DNA of 22,186 nt. It comes from a virus. Positions 849-17,162 of the stretch are shown here, in pieces. The stretch lies in the IMG/VR virus record IMGVR_UViG_3300031788_000446, positions 1 through 22,186 of that record; one strand, written 5' to 3'. Made by a program: the position numbers and the translations under genes. Position 1 is the first letter of the stretch, and each line of letters begins with the position of its first letter. The notes beneath the pieces are model-generated. The model ran no database searches and was not told where the DNA came from. It saw only the letters and a list, made by a program, of their open reading frames with translations.

Positions 849-923
849 GCTTCGTTCGTATAATCGGTAATACACGAGTCTCTAAAACTCAGAATTAGGA
901 TTCGAATTCCTAACGAAGCACCA
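849..923 (+). tRNA. tRNA with anticodon CUA, predicted amber (UAG) suppressor
   Basis: A full cloverleaf can be drawn by hand. The acceptor stem GCTTCGT (849-855) pairs perfectly with ACGAAGC (913-919), followed by discriminator A920 and encoded CCA (921-923). The D stem is GTAT (858-861) with ATAC (870-873), with GG in the loop. The anticodon stem has 4 bp, GAGT with ACTC, plus a C-A mismatch at its base. The 7-base loop CTCTAAA (880-886) has U33, then anticodon CUA (882-884), then A37. The T stem TAGGA (896-900) pairs with TCCTA (908-912) around TTCGAAT. CUA pairs with the stop codon UAG. The amino acid cannot be assigned by eye. The HNH start codon lies 2 bases after the CCA. Confidence 0.87.
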
Positions 924-1547: not shown

Positions 1548-1919
1548 TAGTTCTTTTAAATCAGTAAGCGACTCTACGCGCATTGCAGTTACCAGTTGTC
1601 CGTACGAAACTGAGAGCCCTGTAAGGTGAGAAAGTTCGCGTAACCAGACGAGACGATAGGAGAGCATAAATGCAAACGGGCCGAAATCAGTCATTAACAA
1701 AGCTGACGTAGAGGTTGCTGTAATACGTTACAGTGGATAAACCGGGATGCTCGCTAATACTACAAGTTAGGTTCAACTCAAACAGATTCAATAGTAATCG
1801 TCCTAAATGCGAATCGGGTTGAGGCGGCAGTGTTGGCAAACTGCGGGCTTCGAAAGAAGTTCAGTCAAATGTAGGGATAAAGCAGGAACGCGGCTACGGC
1901 TGCTGATTTAAAAGAACTA
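1548..1919 (+). ncRNA. rnpB-like: structured RNA of about 370 nt, RNase P RNA-like (divergent)
   Basis: This is the only long gene-free stretch in the window. Its ends form a perfect 17-bp helix (1548-1564 with 1903-1919), matching P1 of RNase P RNA. CTCTAC (1572-1577) pairs with GTAGGG (1871-1876), as P2. TTGCAG (1583-1588) with CTGTAA (1619-1624), plus an inner CAGTT/AACTG, forms a P3-like hairpin with an internal loop. GAGAAAGUUCGCGU (1628-1641) resembles conserved region I and pairs with AACGCGGCU (1887-1895), as P4, including a single bulged U (1635) like the universal bulged U of P4. The 3' segment AAAUG...CAGGAACGCGGCU resembles conserved region V. A GAAA-capped hairpin (1848-1859) sits where P18 would be. 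The length fits (E. coli about 377 nt). The specificity domain is not clearly recognisable and sequence identity is low. RNase P RNA cuts 5' leaders from pre-tRNA. A different structured RNA remains possible. Confidence 0.62.
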
Positions 1920-2421: not shown

Positions 2422-2902
2422 CGGAGATATGTTCGAACACCAACATGATTGCTATGTTAATACAATTAATTGTGTTGGCGCGATGGGCGCGGGTATTGCT
2501 TTAGAATTTAAGAACAGGCATCCACAAATGTACAAAGAGTACAAAAGGCTTTGTAACGAAGGAGAAATAGCGGTTGGTGACTGTTGGATTTACAAAGAGG
2601 GCGAATATTACCTAGCAAATTTAGCTGTAAAAAACAATTTTCGCCATCGGATTCGTTTGCCGTGGGCTAAGATTTCCATACGGAATCTGATAAATTCTAT
2701 AACGGATGGTCGGCTACCTGTTCATAGCGTGGCACTTCCACGTATCGGCTCTAAGAATGGAGGGAGAGGAGCGGAGTTTACGCAGTGGGGTGATTACTGG
2801 CCCGCTGATTCGGAAGCTGGATACAAAGAACTTTTGCAACCGTTTTTGCTTGCAGAATTAAAAAAGTGTCCTAAAGTGGAATTCACAATATATCACAGAT
2901 GA
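2405..2902 (+). CDS. macro domain protein, DarG/ALC1-like ADP-ribosyl hydrolase
   Basis: This 165-residue single macro domain opens with NGD (residues 6-8). The ADP-ribose-binding segment NTINCVGAMGAGIALEF spans residues 19-35 and the phosphate loop is LPRIGSKNGG. The NCVG.MG.GIA.EFK pattern is that of the DarG/TARG1-type branch, whose members remove ADP-ribose from DNA bases or from acidic residues. The start is supported by a strong GGGAGGAAAC ribosome-binding site overlapping the phosphatase gene. It is coupled to the next gene by an ATGA overlap. In this window it could reverse marks made by the phage PARP at 11807, or counter a host DarT-type toxin; no DarT gene is present. The substrate is inferred. 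Confidence 0.85.
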   Translation: MVRFVNGDMFEHQHDCYVNTINCVGAMGAGIALEFKNRHPQMYKEYKRLCNEGEIAVGDCWIYKEGEYYLANLAVKNNFRHRIRLPWAKISIRNLINSITDGRLPVHSVALPRIGSKNGGRGAEFTQWGDYWPADSEAGYKELLQPFLLAELKKCPKVEFTIYHR

Positions 2903-4143
2903 ATAAGCTCAACAAACAGGTCCACATTTTCGGAGGCGGTACATTCTCATATGTTCGTACGCACCTTGCTCTGGCCGCACCAGCGTTCGGAAGCACGGCA
3001 AGGAGTATTGTCAACCTTTTTGAGTCAGAGGTCAAATACAGAAATTTGACCGCTGTTTTGCATTTAACCAAAATGGCAGATGCCAGTTCCAAGCTCGTGA
3101 CAAATGATAACGTTGCGGAACGTGTGAAAGAAGTTATCGCCAATCCTCTCACGAAGATTGTTTTCTTTAACGTAGCTATGGTGGATTTCGAAGGAACTCT
3201 TGGGATAAGTAACAGCGGTAAATATGAACCTCGATTGGGTTCTGATAGCAATTATCTTATGGATTTGCGCCCCACCGCGAAGGTCGTAAATAGTATCCGT
3301 AAGACCCGCAAAGATATTTTCCTCGTATCTTTCAAGACCACCAGTGGTGCTAGTAGGGAAGAAATGTACCTAAAAGGGTTGAAGCTTCTTAAAACTTCTA
3401 GCTCTAACCTTGTGTTGGTCAACGACGTAAAAACATGCTGGAACATGGTCATTACCCCCGAGGAAGCAGCATACCATGAAACTCAAGACAGAGATGAAGT
3501 TTTGGCTGGCCTTGTTGAAATGGCGTGGCTCCGTAGCCACTTGACGTTTACACAGTCAACCGTTGTCGCTGGCGAAGCAGTGCCTTGGAATTCTCCAGAA
3601 GTACCTTCGTCACTTCGTAACGTAGTCGATTATTGTATCTCACGAAGGGCTTACAAGCCATTCAATAACTCTACGGTCGGACACTTCGCTGTCAAGGTAA
3701 ACGATAATACATTCCTTACCAGTATCCGTAAGAGTAACTTTAATGATTTGGATAAGGTTGGCCTTGTAAAGGTCGTAACCGATGGTCCCGATACTGTTAT
3801 TGCTTATGGCGCGAAGCCTTCTGTTGGTGGGCAGTCGCAACGCAGAGTATTTAGAGAGCATGAAGGTATGGATTGTATCGTACACTTCCATTCTCCGCTC
3901 AAGTCTGACGCTCCTGATGCAATTCCTATTCGCTCACAGCGCGAAGTGGAGTGCGGTAGCCACGAGTGCGGTAAGAATACCTCAAGCGGCTTGGCGCAGT
4001 TTGGTAACTTGAAAGCTGTCTATCTTGATAGGCACGGTCCTAACATCGTGTTCAATCGCGATATAGACCCGCAGGAGGTTATCAATTTCATCGACCGTAA
4101 CTTCGAGTTGGAAAAGAAGACCGGAGGATACAACCTCATATGA
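2899..4143 (+). CDS. CoaB (DFP)-like domain fused to a class II aldolase-like domain
   Basis: The 414-residue protein has two parts. The N-terminal half resembles the phosphopantothenoylcysteine synthetase (DFP/CoaB) fold: HIFGGGTFSYVR near residues 8-20 matches the GGT...VR nucleotide loop, VAMVDF matches the strand usually reading AVSDF, and later come LVSFKTTSG and LVLVNDVKT. The C-terminal part (from about residue 235) resembles class II aldolase/adducin proteins, with zinc-type histidines HFH (329, 331) and H379 in DRHGPNIVF. CoaB joins cysteine to phosphopantothenate; class II aldolases or epimerases act on sugar phosphates. The fused function is unknown to me. ATGA overlaps link it on both sides to the macro-domain and histidine-phosphatase genes. 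Confidence 0.7.
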   Translation: MNKLNKQVHIFGGGTFSYVRTHLALAAPAFGSTARSIVNLFESEVKYRNLTAVLHLTKMADASSKLVTNDNVAERVKEVIANPLTKIVFFNVAMVDFEGTLGISNSGKYEPRLGSDSNYLMDLRPTAKVVNSIRKTRKDIFLVSFKTTSGASREEMYLKGLKLLKTSSSNLVLVNDVKTCWNMVITPEEAAYHETQDRDEVLAGLVEMAWLRSHLTFTQSTVVAGEAVPWNSPEVPSSLRNVVDYCISRRAYKPFNNSTVGHFAVKVNDNTFLTSIRKSNFNDLDKVGLVKVVTDGPDTVIAYGAKPSVGGQSQRRVFREHEGMDCIVHFHSPLKSDAPDAIPIRSQREVECGSHECGKNTSSGLAQFGNLKAVYLDRHGPNIVFNRDIDPQEVINFIDRNFELEKKTGGYNLI

Positions 4144-11591: not shown

Positions 11592-11765
11592 ATGAATAAA
11601 ACACAATCGCTCGAACAAGATATTAAACAAATCATTGATGGCAATATGAGGCGTAATCCTCAACTCCGCAGTCACATACTTGATGGCAGCGTATCGTTGG
11701 AAGAGTTCGCATTCGCTATGATTACTCAGTGGAAGGCGATGCACGCGATTTCATATCCGGCATAA
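11592..11765 (+). CDS. small hypothetical protein, 57 residues
   Basis: A short frame starting MNKTQSLEQDIKQIIDGN and ending AMHAISYPA then TAA. It is helical and compact, in line with the operon, 4 bases after the previous stop. It ends 41 bases before the PARP start. The reading frame and spacing support it; the function is unknown. Confidence 0.5.
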   Translation: MNKTQSLEQDIKQIIDGNMRRNPQLRSHILDGSVSLEEFAFAMITQWKAMHAISYPA

Positions 11766-11771
11766 TATTTG

Positions 11772-11799
11772 TTGACACAACTCAAAATTCTGCTAAAAC
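11772..11799 (+). promoter_or_regulatory. leaderless promoter of the PARP gene
   Basis: TTGACA (11772-11777), a 16-base spacer, then TAAAAC (11794-11799), the same -10 box as at the tRNA. Seven bases separate it from ATG 11807, which sets the PARP start downstream of the longer in-frame ATG at 11729. Confidence 0.75.
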
Positions 11800-11806
11800 T
11801 ACTCTC

Positions 11807-13069
11807 ATGCCTATCATTGAAACAGTGCGCCTAATCATGGCAGATATTAGCTCCAATCACAATAAACATTGGACGGGGTTCTTGCATGATGATGGTTCCA
11901 TTACGAGCGAGAATGGCAGGGTCGGCGTCACAACCGTTTCCAACACTTGTAGGGGAAGTGGCAAACATGACTTCGACAAGCTCGTGGCTTCAAAGCGTAA
12001 AAAGGGCTACACAGACCTTCGTACCGTTGCAACGAGCGGAGTACAAGTCGTCACTCCCGGCAAGCAAGATTTGCACCAACTAGCCTTGGAACAAATCCAA
12101 ACCTCGTCCCCGCTTTTGACGAAGCTTATTAAGCGTCTGGTCGAAGCGAACGTCCATCAAATTACTAAAGCTACGCAGATTTCTTTCAATAGTTCGTCTG
12201 GTTTGTTTACGACTCCGTTAGGTGTTGTTACTTTGGATGGTATCACTGAGGCTCGTGATATTCTCGCTGACCTTACTGGCTATGTCCAGAAGCACGACTA
12301 TGGCGCTGACTGCATTACGAAGGTAAGTAAATTTCTTAGTATCGTTCCTCAGAATATTGGTATGAAACGTTTGGAAGTTCGTACGTTCATTCCTGATATT
12401 CAATCTATTCAGAAGCAAAATGATATTTTAGACTCTTTGGAAGCGTCGTATCAAGCAATGCAAACTCCAGCCGCCAATGCTGCCGCTCCTAAGAGCGTGG
12501 CCGAAAAAGTTTTCTCGGTCAAGCTTGGCTTGCTGGAAGACCCTCGTGAGCGGGCGCGTATTGAGAAGAAGTATCGTGACACTCGTAAAGACCAACACGT
12601 TTGCAGTCATTTGCGCGTAAAGGAAATCTATTTGGTGCAGATTGAAAGCCAACAGAAAGCCTACGAAATCGGTCGCAAGGTTGGTACTGAAATGGAGCTA
12701 TGGCACGGAACTAAACAAGCGAACCTTTTGAGTATTCTCAAGTCAGGTTTGAAAGTTTCTCCTCCTAGCACAGCGCGAATTGCTGGTAAAATGTTTGGAA
12801 ATGGCGTTTACTTTGCGATTGATAGCACCAAGAGCCTTAACTATAGTTATGGCTATTGGGACGGCAAAACTGAAAAGAATTGTTTTATGTTCTTATGCCC
12901 TGTTTCGCTTGGTAAATATTACGTGCCAGCAGGTTCTTATGAGCACCTTCCGAAGAGTGGCTTCGATTCGACATGGGCGAAGTCTGGTAAGTCGGGGGTT
13001 CGTAATGATGAGATTATTGTTTATAACAACGACCGCTTCGACCTTAAATATCTTGTGGAGTTTGAATAA
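11807..13069 (+). CDS. poly/mono-ADP-ribose polymerase with WGR, PRD and catalytic domains (PARP1-like)
   Basis: From ATG 11807 the protein is 420 residues. Residues about 17-75 form a WGR-like domain (HWTGFLHDDGS, NGRVG in place of WGR, then FDKLVASKRKKGY). A helical PARP regulatory domain follows (about 100-220), containing FLSIVPQNIGMKR, the counterpart of the FYTLIPHxFG motif. The catalytic domain keeps the H-Y-E triad: H300 in LWHGTK, Y335 in GNGVYFAIDSTKSLNYSY and E402 in RNDEIIVY. An E at that position is the residue needed for chain elongation in PARP1. It transfers ADP-ribose from NAD+ to targets, probably when the WGR/PRD senses nucleic acid. There are no zinc fingers. NAD-supply genes lie downstream and a macro domain upstream. 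Confidence 0.92.
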   Translation: MPIIETVRLIMADISSNHNKHWTGFLHDDGSITSENGRVGVTTVSNTCRGSGKHDFDKLVASKRKKGYTDLRTVATSGVQVVTPGKQDLHQLALEQIQTSSPLLTKLIKRLVEANVHQITKATQISFNSSSGLFTTPLGVVTLDGITEARDILADLTGYVQKHDYGADCITKVSKFLSIVPQNIGMKRLEVRTFIPDIQSIQKQNDILDSLEASYQAMQTPAANAAAPKSVAEKVFSVKLGLLEDPRERARIEKKYRDTRKDQHVCSHLRVKEIYLVQIESQQKAYEIGRKVGTEMELWHGTKQANLLSILKSGLKVSPPSTARIAGKMFGNGVYFAIDSTKSLNYSYGYWDGKTEKNCFMFLCPVSLGKYYVPAGSYEHLPKSGFDSTWAKSGKSGVRNDEIIVYNNDRFDLKYLVEFE

Positions 13070-13740: not shown

Positions 13741-14552
13741 TGGCCGCAAAAACTTCATTGCAGTCCTTCGTTGGAGAATACTATGCAAACATACTTCTCC
13801 TCGACCCGAATCTAAATCCTCTAACTACCATTTCGTCCAGAAGGGCGAAATGGTATTTGGATAGGGGTTTGGCTAATTCGCTTGGTCCCGATGGAGTTTA
13901 CAATGAGCGTATCCAATTGACATTCGAGCCGAAGAAAAATTCCTCGAATAAGTTTCTTCAAACAGTTCTTCCTACGCAATGTGTAATGTGTGCGACGAAG
14001 GAGAATCTTACCGTTCATCACGTAATACCTGTTGCGGTTAAGCGATTCTTCCCGAAGGAAGATAAAGACCATACACGCCAATGGTGTGTCCTATTGTGCG
14101 AGAAGCATCACTTAGAAGCCGAGAAAACCTGCCGCCCATTTTATGAGAAAGGTCTTCAAGCAGCAGTACGTGAGGCCCAAGTCAGGCACCACGATAAAAA
14201 TAAACTACTTTTTAAATTAGCTAATGTTTTAAACGCTCAAAACCTTATTACTCAAGCAGTTATAGAGTCGTTGACATCAGAAGAGTTGGGATTATACGGA
14301 GCTTTTCTTCAATCTTTATCAACGCCTCCAGATTCCTTTAAGAGACTCAAGGAATTAATTATGGAATTGCGTGCAGCGCAAAAGAAATCCGTTAAGGCGG
14401 CAAAAGCTGAATGGGGCGCAAGGTATATTATAGAGAACGGTGGCGTTCAAGGCATTAAGGAAATTTATCGTGTAGCGTTCTTAAAGTTGAATCCTGAATT
14501 TTTACCAGAGGGATTTTTAGTAGATTCGGTCGAATTAATATGCACTCAATGA
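13740..14552 (+). CDS. HNH endonuclease with PLMP/RRXRR-like N-terminus
   Basis: The 270-residue protein starts with ILLLDPNLNPLTTISSRRAKWYLDRGLA (about residues 18-45). This resembles the short domain that reads VLD..GxPLMP...RAxxLLxxGxA in RRXRR proteins and IscB. An HNH core follows: CVMC (81, 84), TVHHVIPV with H93/H94, and LLCEKHH (C120, H123, H124). The remainder is helical. No RuvC segments are visible, so it is not an IscB. It is probably a free-standing HNH nuclease. It overlaps the NMNAT gene by ATGA. Confidence 0.78.
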   Translation: MAAKTSLQSFVGEYYANILLLDPNLNPLTTISSRRAKWYLDRGLANSLGPDGVYNERIQLTFEPKKNSSNKFLQTVLPTQCVMCATKENLTVHHVIPVAVKRFFPKEDKDHTRQWCVLLCEKHHLEAEKTCRPFYEKGLQAAVREAQVRHHDKNKLLFKLANVLNAQNLITQAVIESLTSEELGLYGAFLQSLSTPPDSFKRLKELIMELRAAQKKSVKAAKAEWGARYIIENGGVQGIKEIYRVAFLKLNPEFLPEGFLVDSVELICTQ

Positions 14553-15451
14553 CAAACCTAAATACATACGGAGTTATAGTCGGAAGATTTCAGGTACATC
14601 GCATGACAGCGGGGCACTTAGATTTGTTCAATAGGGTATTCGATAAACATCAGATGGTACTCGTCGTGCTTGGATGTTCTCCTAAGCGTCTCGCTCGTAA
14701 GAATGCATTGACATTTGAAATGCGGCGACAAATGATTCAGGAGGAATATCCTCATGCAGATTTGAGGGTTGTGCCGCTGATGGACGTTGGCAACGATGAA
14801 ACTTGGAACCGCAATCTGGACAAAGCTATTCAAGAAGCTATTCCTGATGCGTATCAGAATAACACAATCCTATATGGCTCGCGGGATTCTTTTGTAAAGT
14901 CTTATAAAGGGGCATTTCATGCGGAGGCTTTGGAGTCACGCATTACTGAAACAGGCACCGAAATGCGTGAGCGCGTTCTGAATCGAAAGAATTTTAGCGA
15001 TGACTTCCGTGCTGGACGTATCTCTGGTGCTTATGACCAATACCCTAAGACATGGGCGACTGTTGATACTGCAATTACGAACGATAATTTCGATATGCTG
15101 ATGGTCCGCAAACCGGATTCAAAGGTATGGAGATTCTGTGGAGGGTTTTCAGAACCAGAATCTATCTGTTTCGAAGAAGATGCAATCCGTGAGGTTAAAG
15201 AAGAACTAGGAATAGAAATTTATGAACCGAAATATCTAGGAAGTTTTCTTATTGATGATTGGAGATATAGGGATGATACAGATAAAATCAAGACTCTATT
15301 CTTTCACGCTAAATACAAAAGCGGCACCGTGATAGCTCAAGACGATATAGCGGAAGCTAAATGGTTTAAGCCACATGAACTAACTATTGAAGATATAGCT
15401 CCTGAACATTTACCGTTGTTACGGAGATTCGGGACAGAATTTATGCTTTAA
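14549..15451 (+). CDS. nadM-like: bifunctional NMN adenylyltransferase / Nudix hydrolase
   Basis: The 300-residue protein has an N-terminal nucleotidyltransferase domain with GRFQVHRMTAGH (residues 12-23), the GRFxPxxxGH-type motif that binds ATP. A C-terminal Nudix domain follows, whose box runs from about residue 199 to 222 (EPESICFEEDAIREVKEELG). This arrangement is that of NadM-Nudix enzymes, which make NAD+ from NMN and ATP and hydrolyse ADP-ribose or related compounds. I use ATG 14549, which overlaps the previous TGA as ATGA; ATG 14540 is an alternative. Promoter-like TTGACA-N16-TATACG at 14271-14298 could also serve it. A nicotinamidase follows, beyond a reverse-strand homing endonuclease. 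Confidence 0.92.
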   Translation: MTNLNTYGVIVGRFQVHRMTAGHLDLFNRVFDKHQMVLVVLGCSPKRLARKNALTFEMRRQMIQEEYPHADLRVVPLMDVGNDETWNRNLDKAIQEAIPDAYQNNTILYGSRDSFVKSYKGAFHAEALESRITETGTEMRERVLNRKNFSDDFRAGRISGAYDQYPKTWATVDTAITNDNFDMLMVRKPDSKVWRFCGGFSEPESICFEEDAIREVKEELGIEIYEPKYLGSFLIDDWRYRDDTDKIKTLFFHAKYKSGTVIAQDDIAEAKWFKPHELTIEDIAPEHLPLLRRFGTEFML

Positions 15452-16349: not shown

Positions 16350-17162
16350 ATGAAAAATATTCAGTTGCTCATTATTGACCCGCAGTTCGACTTCTGCGAC
16401 CCTAAAGGTGCTCTCTACGTAGGAGGAGCCGAGAAAGACCTCGAACGTCTTGCGAAGCTAATCAGCCGTAACAAGGACCGTATTGACGATATTCGCGTCA
16501 CTCTCGATTCTCACCAACCTGTCCACATCGCGCACCCTATTTGTTGGGTGGACGCAGCAGGTAAGCACCCTGACCCTTTCACCATGATTACCGTAGCGGA
16601 CGTTACGGGCACCGCTCCTAAGTGGCGTGCATTCAATCCCGCTTGGCAGACTCGCCAAGTCGCATACGTTAACGCTCTCGCGGCAGGGCAGCGTTATGTT
16701 CTCGTTATTTGGCCCCCGCATTGCCTTATTGGTACGGACGGTCATCGTATCCACCCAATTCTCCAGCCCGCGCTTCGTGAGTGGCAGGACCAGTTCGCGA
16801 TGGTGGATTATGTTACTAAAGGCAGTAATCCTTTTACAGAGCACTATTCGGTCGTCAAGGCTGATGTCATCGACCCCGAAGACCCCAGCACCGATTTGAA
16901 CACGAGCTTTATTAATCGTCTTCAAACCGCTGATGAAATTTGGATTGCTGGTGAGGCGTTGAGTCACTGCGTTGCTAATTCTGTTCGCGACATCGCCGCA
17001 GAGTTTGGTGACGAGCACGTTAAGAAGTTCGTTCTTCTTGAGGACGCTTCGAGTCCCGTAGGCGACCTTCCGGGGAGCACTATGTTTGCTGATATGGCCG
17101 ACTCGTTCGTTAAAGAGCTTGTCGCCAAGGGCATGCGCATTGCAAAAACCACGGATTTTTAA
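16350..17162 (+). CDS. pncA-like: nicotinamidase-like cysteine hydrolase (isochorismatase fold)
   Basis: The 270-residue protein has the catalytic triad of the family: D10 in LLIIDPQFDF, K157 in DYVTKGSNP and C207 in GEALSHCVANSV. The metal-binding region LDSHQPVHIAHP (D53, H55, H59/H62) and WPPHCLIGTDG are as in PncA. It is somewhat longer than typical PncA (about 190-215 residues). It would deaminate nicotinamide to nicotinate, feeding the deamidated NAD salvage route; related isochorismatase activities cannot be excluded. In this window it would recycle the nicotinamide released by the PARP. Its last 12 codons recur in a small ORF downstream. Confidence 0.85.
   Translation: MKNIQLLIIDPQFDFCDPKGALYVGGAEKDLERLAKLISRNKDRIDDIRVTLDSHQPVHIAHPICWVDAAGKHPDPFTMITVADVTGTAPKWRAFNPAWQTRQVAYVNALAAGQRYVLVIWPPHCLIGTDGHRIHPILQPALREWQDQFAMVDYVTKGSNPFTEHYSVVKADVIDPEDPSTDLNTSFINRLQTADEIWIAGEALSHCVANSVRDIAAEFGDEHVKKFVLLEDASSPVGDLPGSTMFADMADSFVKELVAKGMRIAKTTDF

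Follow-up and report, generated by a model that had tools for sequence, protein, structure and literature searches.

A divergent RNase P RNA predicted in a metagenomic virus contig, and its relatives in phage records

The DNA analyzed here, a metagenomic IMG/VR contig of 22,186 bases (the window), is predicted to encode a divergent RNase P RNA at positions 1548-1919, of a family known so far only from phage records in the data searched; we put the probability of this reading at about 0.87. A preliminary description of the window had offered either a phage RNase P ribozyme or a new structured RNA of similar architecture, and the ribozyme is supported by covariation among relatives and by the matches of these relatives to the Rfam RNase P models. 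Judged from its sequence, the RNA most likely matures phage pre-tRNAs together with the RnpA protein of the host.

The stretch is flanked by ORFs at 1215-1544 and 1927-2421 and is indeed gene-free: no ORF of at least 60 amino acids overlaps it on either strand, and a protein-coding reading was rejected on this ground. A contig of 64,613 bases (G001) holds the entire window with 100% identity over its full length, and a contig of 40,530 bases (G002) holds a copy of the RNA identical to that of the window. The folding energy of the RNA is modest (z -2.03; one of 100 shuffled sequences folded equally well), as expected because a nested fold cannot contain the P2/P4 pseudoknot; it is conservation among relatives, not folding energy, that raises the RNA above chance.

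The predicted gene extends from P1 to P1 (1548-1919, plus strand, as are all features given here), and its helices are named by comparison with E. coli. The closing helix comprises 17 consecutive Watson-Crick pairs (1548-1564 with 1903-1919), as had been described, followed by a U.G and an A-U pair, for 19 pairs in total (P1 strands 1548-1566 and 1901-1919). Other elements named in the preliminary description are present as well: the P2-like helix (CUCUAC, 1572-1577, preceded by CGA; GUAGGG, 1871-1876); the P4-like helix with a single bulged U (5' strand 1633-1641, in which A1633, G1634 and U1636-U1641 pair with 1888-1895 and U1635 is bulged), which forms a pseudoknot with P2; the CR-I-like segment GAGAAAGUUCG (1628-1638; E. 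coli rnpB counterpart GAGGAAAGUCCG); the J2/4 and CR-V-like segment AUAAAGCAGGAACGCGGCUACGG (1877-1899, aligned to relatives; E. coli rnpB ACAGAACCCGGCUUA); and the GAAA hairpin (CUUC-GAAA-GAAG, 1848-1859), which is P18-like, a hairpin of similar kind being present in one relative (L082). Positions 1578-1627 would correspond to P3 by their position, and this region is larger than in most aligned relatives. P5 was placed in the window by the covariance model described below (AACC, 1642-1645, with GGUU, 1770-1773), its 3' strand being supported also by alignment and pair counts, and is followed by a J5/15-like CAA (1774-1776). The part between the P5 strands (1646-1769) is specificity-domain-like by its position and variable among relatives. 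The segment 1777-1789 contains the 5' strands of P15 (CUC, 1777-1779) and P16 (GAUUC, 1785-1789) with AAACA between them, both helices being supported by covariation, and the segment 1811-1823 contains the 3' strands of P16 (GAAUC, 1811-1815) and P15 (GAG, 1821-1823) with GGU at 1817-1819, a motif that all 28 aligned relatives share without change.

Compared by eye with E. coli rnpB, the CR-I, CR-IV and CR-V segments of the family have the consensus GAGGAAGUUCG, AGCAAC..CAAACAG and ACAGAA...CGGCUA; the first is invariant in the 28 aligned relatives, the window having A at the fourth base, and the second was set beside E. coli AGCAAGGCCAAAUAG. Between the P5 strands, where CR-II and CR-III were sought, the alignment of the 28 relatives has some conserved bases, with the consensus CGUUAA.ACCAC.

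A search with the Rfam RNase P models had been proposed as a check on the stretch, and for the window RNA itself it gave a negative answer: no RNase P match was obtained in 1400-2050, even up to E 10, and none in G001 either. At curated cut-offs, tRNA alone was reported for the whole window, and up to E 10 no plausible other family was found in 1400-2050, where the two models listed were animal lncRNA models (E 0.14 and 1.2). The candidates tmRNA, group I intron, GOLLD and HEARO, all of which presumably have Rfam models, were rejected for lack of an Rfam match (window at the gathering cut-off; 1400-2050 up to E 10). BLASTN of 1400-2100 against 50,697 phage records returned short pieces at chance level only.

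Relatives of the RNA were found across virus contigs. A protein of the window (2899-4143) has 57.5% identity to a stretch of LR756511, the record of a 595-kb uncultured phage, and a script seeking CR-I with a pairing CR-V had its top match, with a score of 11, in the contig of the window itself, and a match in LR756511 scored 10.5 (next best 8). The LR756511 member (minus strand, 224,405) lies in a tRNA-bearing part of that record; its P1, P2 and P4 differ in sequence from those of the window yet pair, and the J2/4 segments in this comparison are AUAAAACAG and AUAAAGCAG. Of the 82 ORFs of G001, 19 have tblastn matches in LR756511. Judged by one protein, a 447-kb relative (G003) and LR756511 are equally close to the window, yet no family member was found in it (best 8.9 bits with the covariance model).

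Scanning 2.9 million virus contigs with patterns for the 3' end yielded 30, 30 and 60 loci, which overlap; a total of 96 loci was examined, 94 from these scans and two from BLAST, and a second copy of the window RNA (L006) stands outside this number. The search pattern represents the last bases of the RNA, and a locus had to show P4 pairing to be accepted. In 68 of the 96 loci, a P4 partner lies within a CR-I-like context; they correspond to 48 distinct cores with that of the window included, and to 49 rows when LR756511 was added. The two non-self matches of the first pattern (L007, L008) look protein-coding and have no Rfam match up to E 0.1, and were rejected. The members include one in DLP6, an isolated Stenotrophomonas phage (KU682439.2; 105,774-106,023), where the feature is unannotated and a tRNA-Arg gene lies directly after it, and one in LR756501, a phage of 735 kb, followed by a hairpin that looks terminator-like by eye. 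Used as BLASTN queries, L082 retrieved LR756501/LR756503, and L089 and L169 retrieved DLP6; DLP6 retrieved itself alone and L113 retrieved nothing.

No accepted P4 partner was present in 28 of the 96 loci, 17 of which were searched with the phage covariance model (R1). Two of these are members cut by the locus end (L124 and L131; 50.9 and 104 bits), two are canonical-type RNase P RNAs (L110, L121), one is doubtful (L155; 25 and 13 bits), and the other 12 gave at most 19 bits or nothing. The remaining 11 loci, whose 3' context is shared with or closely like that of L080 or L085, were taken as chance matches. Contigs of 84,980 bacterial and archaeal species were scanned with two patterns, yielding 0 and 4 matches, none of the four with an acceptable P4 partner, and R1 scored matches in bacterial contigs at up to 21 bits; these scans bear on the family at large and not on window-type RNAs, because the 3' end of the window (AAAGCAG, not RAACAG) fails both patterns.

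Covariation in P2 and P4, the other check that had been proposed, is well borne out: 25 different P2 and 12 different P4 helices occur in 48 members (window included), nearly all of them pairing. P2 forms 288 of 288 pairs (mean 188 and maximum 207 when the 5' and 3' flanks were swapped between members), and P4 forms 285 of 288 over the six pairs counted (swapped mean 228, maximum 245); both counts are favored, since P4 pairing belongs to the acceptance rule and P2 was picked as the best place near the anchor. P1, sought in the same way in the control as in the members, reaches 6 bp or more in all 48 members, against a mean of 30% with swapped flanks. No P2 could be located at the expected place in one further member (L172), which the P1 and P2 count excludes, and in two others (L109, L170) P2 was re-placed by hand after the automatic choice had taken another register. 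The bulged P4 base is U in 47 of 49 rows and C in L098 and L142.

An alignment (MAFFT) was made of 28 of the 49 rows, mostly shorter cores and excluding the window. RNAalifold alone predicted P2, P5, P15 and P16 from this alignment, and for 16 of its 21 pairs one or more sequences have changes in both partners. For P2, P4, P5, P15 and P16 together, 98.3% of 695 cells are paired, vs. 71.1% after shuffling and 27-39% with slid strands; double changes occur in 19 of 25 pairs, the pseudoknot included (shuffled mean 15.0), and the covariation score is 0.678, vs. 0.168 shuffled and at most 0.101 slid. Of the aligned cells, 99.1% are paired in P4 and likewise in P5, which has double changes at all four pairs. 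The P1 closing helix and the P2/P4 pseudoknot, two of the features taken to mark membership among RNase P RNAs, were both found. The covariance model R1, built from the 28 relatives without the window, matches the window at 1597-1899 with 88 bits (E 2.8e-27), a score that comes partly from the last bases, i.e. the search pattern. The fit requires a large insertion between the P5 strands and another after P15 that includes the GAAA hairpin, and it misplaces the 5' P2 strand, setting it near 1600 and not at 1572-1577, while P1 closes the structure outside the matched part.

The Rfam RNase P models match several of the relatives. In locus searches, matches were obtained for three of six loci (E 0.018 to 7e-11) and four of 13 loci (E 7e-7 to 5e-14), below the cut-off. 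Among 32 whole records, 30 of them with a member, RF00010 matches four and RF00373 eight, one of each being G028; at the member's own place, nine of the 30 member-bearing records have an RF00010 or RF00373 match that is significant (per-record E 6e-6 to 3e-17) and below the cut-off, and 21 of the 30 have no Rfam RNase P match at E 0.001. The best match is that of DLP6 (54.7 bits, E 3.3e-17), which covers the full model length and extends from the first P1 base to four bases past the last. Two inconsistencies were noted: the DLP6 match is absent when a 271-base piece is searched alone, and the L091 match (48.9 bits, locus search) is absent from the whole-record search, a first look having given no candidate. 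The gathering cut-offs (RF00010, 100 bits; RF00373, 84 bits) are reached neither by the window nor by the family members (22-55 bits where reported). The family is outside the curated RF00010 and RF00373 as defined, though homologous to them, and it is missed, or scored below cut-off, by Rfam.

The phage model finds E. coli rnpB with 15.3 bits (E 3e-4), in register at the 3' part. When DLP6 and E. coli rnpB were compared by eye, GAGGAAGUUCG was set beside GAGGAAAGUCCG, AGCAAGCCAAACAG beside AGCAAGGCCAAAUAG, UCGGGUUGG beside CCGGGUAGG, and UUAGAUAAAUG...ACAGAA...CGGCUA beside CUAGAUGAAUG...ACAGAACCCGGCUUA. Shared with E. coli rnpB and class A (RF00010) are P1, P2, P4 with its bulged U, P5, the CAA of J5/15, P15 with GGU in L15, P16, and CR-I, CR-IV and CR-V in the same order, as well as, in the window, the P18-type GAAA hairpin. 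The phage RNAs differ from that of E. coli by CGGCUA instead of CGGCUUA in CR-V and by an extra base separating CAGRA from CGGCU (by eye), and from class A by scores under the curated cut-off, by the variability of the stretch that the P5 strands enclose and by the lack (by eye) of a P18-like hairpin in the shortest members. Several short phage members match the archaeal model RF00373 (22-49 bits), and archaeal type A RNAs are described as lacking P13/P14 and P18 in an excerpt of PMC4919922; however, these matches are below the 84-bit cut-off and the only member phage with a known host, DLP6, infects a bacterium. Minimal RNase P RNAs (type P of the archaeon Pyrobaculum; T-type), as partial sources present them, have a similarly small specificity domain, whereas the phage members retain P15/P16, GGU and a P5 whose strands enclose further sequence.

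The tRNA gene that had been noted upstream was confirmed at 849-923 (anticodon CTA, CCA encoded at 921-923; ARAGORN, and Rfam RF00005 with 57.6 bits); it is the nearest tRNA gene and ends 624 bases before the RNA, which lies at one end of the tRNA region of G001 (24 tRNAs by ARAGORN, 27 by Rfam). Of the 68 loci with a P4 partner, 62 have a tRNA gene within 1 kb, in all 62 on the same strand, some loci being identical in core, and the median distance between member and tRNA is 43 bases (66 loci with any tRNA). In a control of 23 of the 28 partnerless loci (L110, L121, L124, L131 and L157 left out), any tRNA was found in one of 23; the contig of one control locus (L153) has a canonical RNase P RNA at another site. 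The promoter TTGACA-N16-TAAAGT of the preliminary description is present at 1515-1542 with 10 of 12 matches, but it is weak taken alone, with two such sites vs. 1.4 expected in shuffles; a promoter-like site just upstream was found in nine of 49 members (window included), compared with a mean of 3.1 (maximum 7) in shuffles and 3.6 (maximum 9) in random stretches. The arrangement suggests that most members may be cotranscribed with tRNAs. As separate observations, tRNAs with anticodon CTA (amber type, labeled Pyl by ARAGORN) are present in the window (849-923), in G003 (L037) and in LR756511 (L055), and TAG is the stop codon of 10 of the 82 predicted G001 ORFs, despite the CTA-anticodon tRNA genes.

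Of the 32 records, one has a predicted RnpA gene (PF00825): G004, of 476 kb, in which a member RNA (L111) is present as well. The gene (440379-440669; L179 1498-1797) encodes 99 amino acids (E 3.4e-13) containing AVDRNRIKRLMKESVR, and adjoins a ClpP-like head maturation protease gene (head maturation protease families). No RnpA gene was found in 29 of the 30 member-bearing records, many of which are fragments; host RnpA is hence the likely partner elsewhere. Genes for tmRNA were also observed in member records (L089/L106, L104, L113, and LR756511 341280-341632; 12 of the 68 loci contain a tmRNA gene), and tRNAs, RNase P RNA and tmRNA thereby occur in the same records.

The phage RNase P RNA would be transcribed with or beside the phage tRNAs and would bind the RnpA of the host, or perhaps the phage's own RnpA in the 476-kb record. 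The GGU of L15 would pair with the 3' CCA of phage pre-tRNAs, as L15 GGU does with the RCCA end of tRNA in bacterial RNase P according to an excerpt of PMC4919922, and RnpA would contact the 5' leader of the pre-tRNA. Catalytic metal ions are predicted to be bound by P4 at the bulged U, the 5' leaders of phage pre-tRNAs would be removed, and the outcome would be a maturation of phage tRNAs that is independent of the RNase P RNA of the host. A wider reading, which we offer tentatively as somewhat short of an even chance, is that many tRNA-rich phages, ranging in size from a T4-like isolate of 168 kb to giants of 735 kb, have a viral RNase P lineage of their own, in at least one record with RNA and protein. 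This lineage would sustain tRNA maturation under overload, degradation or shutdown of host RNase P, and its altered specificity part may favor phage over host pre-tRNAs.

Three other explanations were considered. An RNA that is derived from RNase P RNA might act as a decoy, binding host RnpA or pre-tRNA and slowing host tRNA maturation without cutting; such an RNA would share the RnpA of the host, consistent with the 29 of 30 records without RnpA, and aligned members have a short or variable stretch between the two P5 strands. However, a decoy has no obvious need for P4 and leaves the retention of the catalytic core unexplained, as the bulged base of P4, the GAGGAAGUUCG invariant in 28 relatives, CR-V and GGU are all kept, and the genes lie beside phage tRNAs on the same strand; we consider the decoy improbable. 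A structured phage RNA of another function near tRNAs, GOLLD-like and merely resembling RNase P RNA, would agree with the absence of an Rfam RNase P match in the window, and GOLLD is likewise associated with phages and tRNA genes according to an excerpt of PMC6582537; it would not account for the Rfam RNase P matches of relatives, which are significant and run the whole length of the model, for the RNase P-type pseudoknot with the GGU motif, or for the lack of any plausible other family up to E 10 in the window RNA, and is very improbable.

That the gene is a bacterial rnpB in a mis-binned or chimeric contig is suggested by the origin of the window, a metagenomic record of 22,186 bases, and by its 3' end, which neither of the patterns scanned over bacterial genomes matches. 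Yet the same family is present in the isolated and sequenced phage DLP6 and in the 595- and 735-kb phage records, the scans of 84,980 species gave 0 and 4 matches and none with an acceptable P4 partner, and the window, G001 and G002 agree; we regard this explanation as extremely improbable. The divergent phage RNase P RNA remains the preferred reading.

RNase P RNA was among the first ribozymes found and has been treated as a cellular gene, and the enzyme that acts on the tRNA precursors of phage T4 is the RNase P of the host. That these precursors are RNase P substrates is stated in an excerpt of PMC11143913. If the present reading is true, some phages bring the catalytic core of tRNA maturation along with their tRNAs, the phage members would provide natural experiments on how far RNase P RNA can shrink, and present covariance models would miss or under-score a widespread ribozyme type. 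No description of a phage RNase P RNA was found among the open-license papers searched; most subscription journals and most preprints are outside this scope, so a description elsewhere is possible and the absence is weak evidence. The DLP6 paper contains no occurrence of 'RNase P', 'ribonuclease' or 'ncRNA', and 'RNase P', 'ribonuclease P', 'ribozyme' and 'Rfam' are likewise absent from the main text of the paper on huge phages. RNase P RNA as such is well known; its phage lineage has not been described, as far as the searched open-license papers show. The question is directly testable, DLP6 being a cultured phage.

Other phage RNAs near tRNA genes are GOLLD RNA and the theta ribozymes, whose structures are not known to be related to that of the phage RNase P RNA. 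Their location is similar to that of the family (excerpts of PMC6582537 and PMC10879173), and the theta ribozymes are HDV-like (PMC10879173). Canonical RNase P RNAs were observed in IMG/VR contigs G028 (37855-38155; L181 7856-8156), among genes matching phage families, G031 (32834-33193) and G034 (30898-31198), and also in G032, where the RNA is in two pieces about 400 bases apart, as if interrupted; with 149-188 bits they differ from the phage family in being above the cut-off and less divergent. A GIY-YIG homing endonuclease ORF (PF01541, E 3.5e-11) was observed inside the RNase P RNA gene at L104 2094-2729 (also in L098 and L105), placed after the CAAACAG segment and before the CR-V part, an insert that may be spliced out or may simply be tolerated; with this ORF inside it, the gene is about 800 bases long, and the RNase P RNA gene of L142 is similar in length. 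Finally, the window encodes a possible NAD/ADP-ribose gene set (2405-2902, 11729-13069, 14540-15451 and 16350-17162), comprising a macro domain, a PARP with regulatory domain (E 2.9e-29), a cytidyltransferase-Nudix fusion and a weak isochorismatase match, and further on in G001 there is what we take, by eye from its motif, to be a NADAR-like protein.
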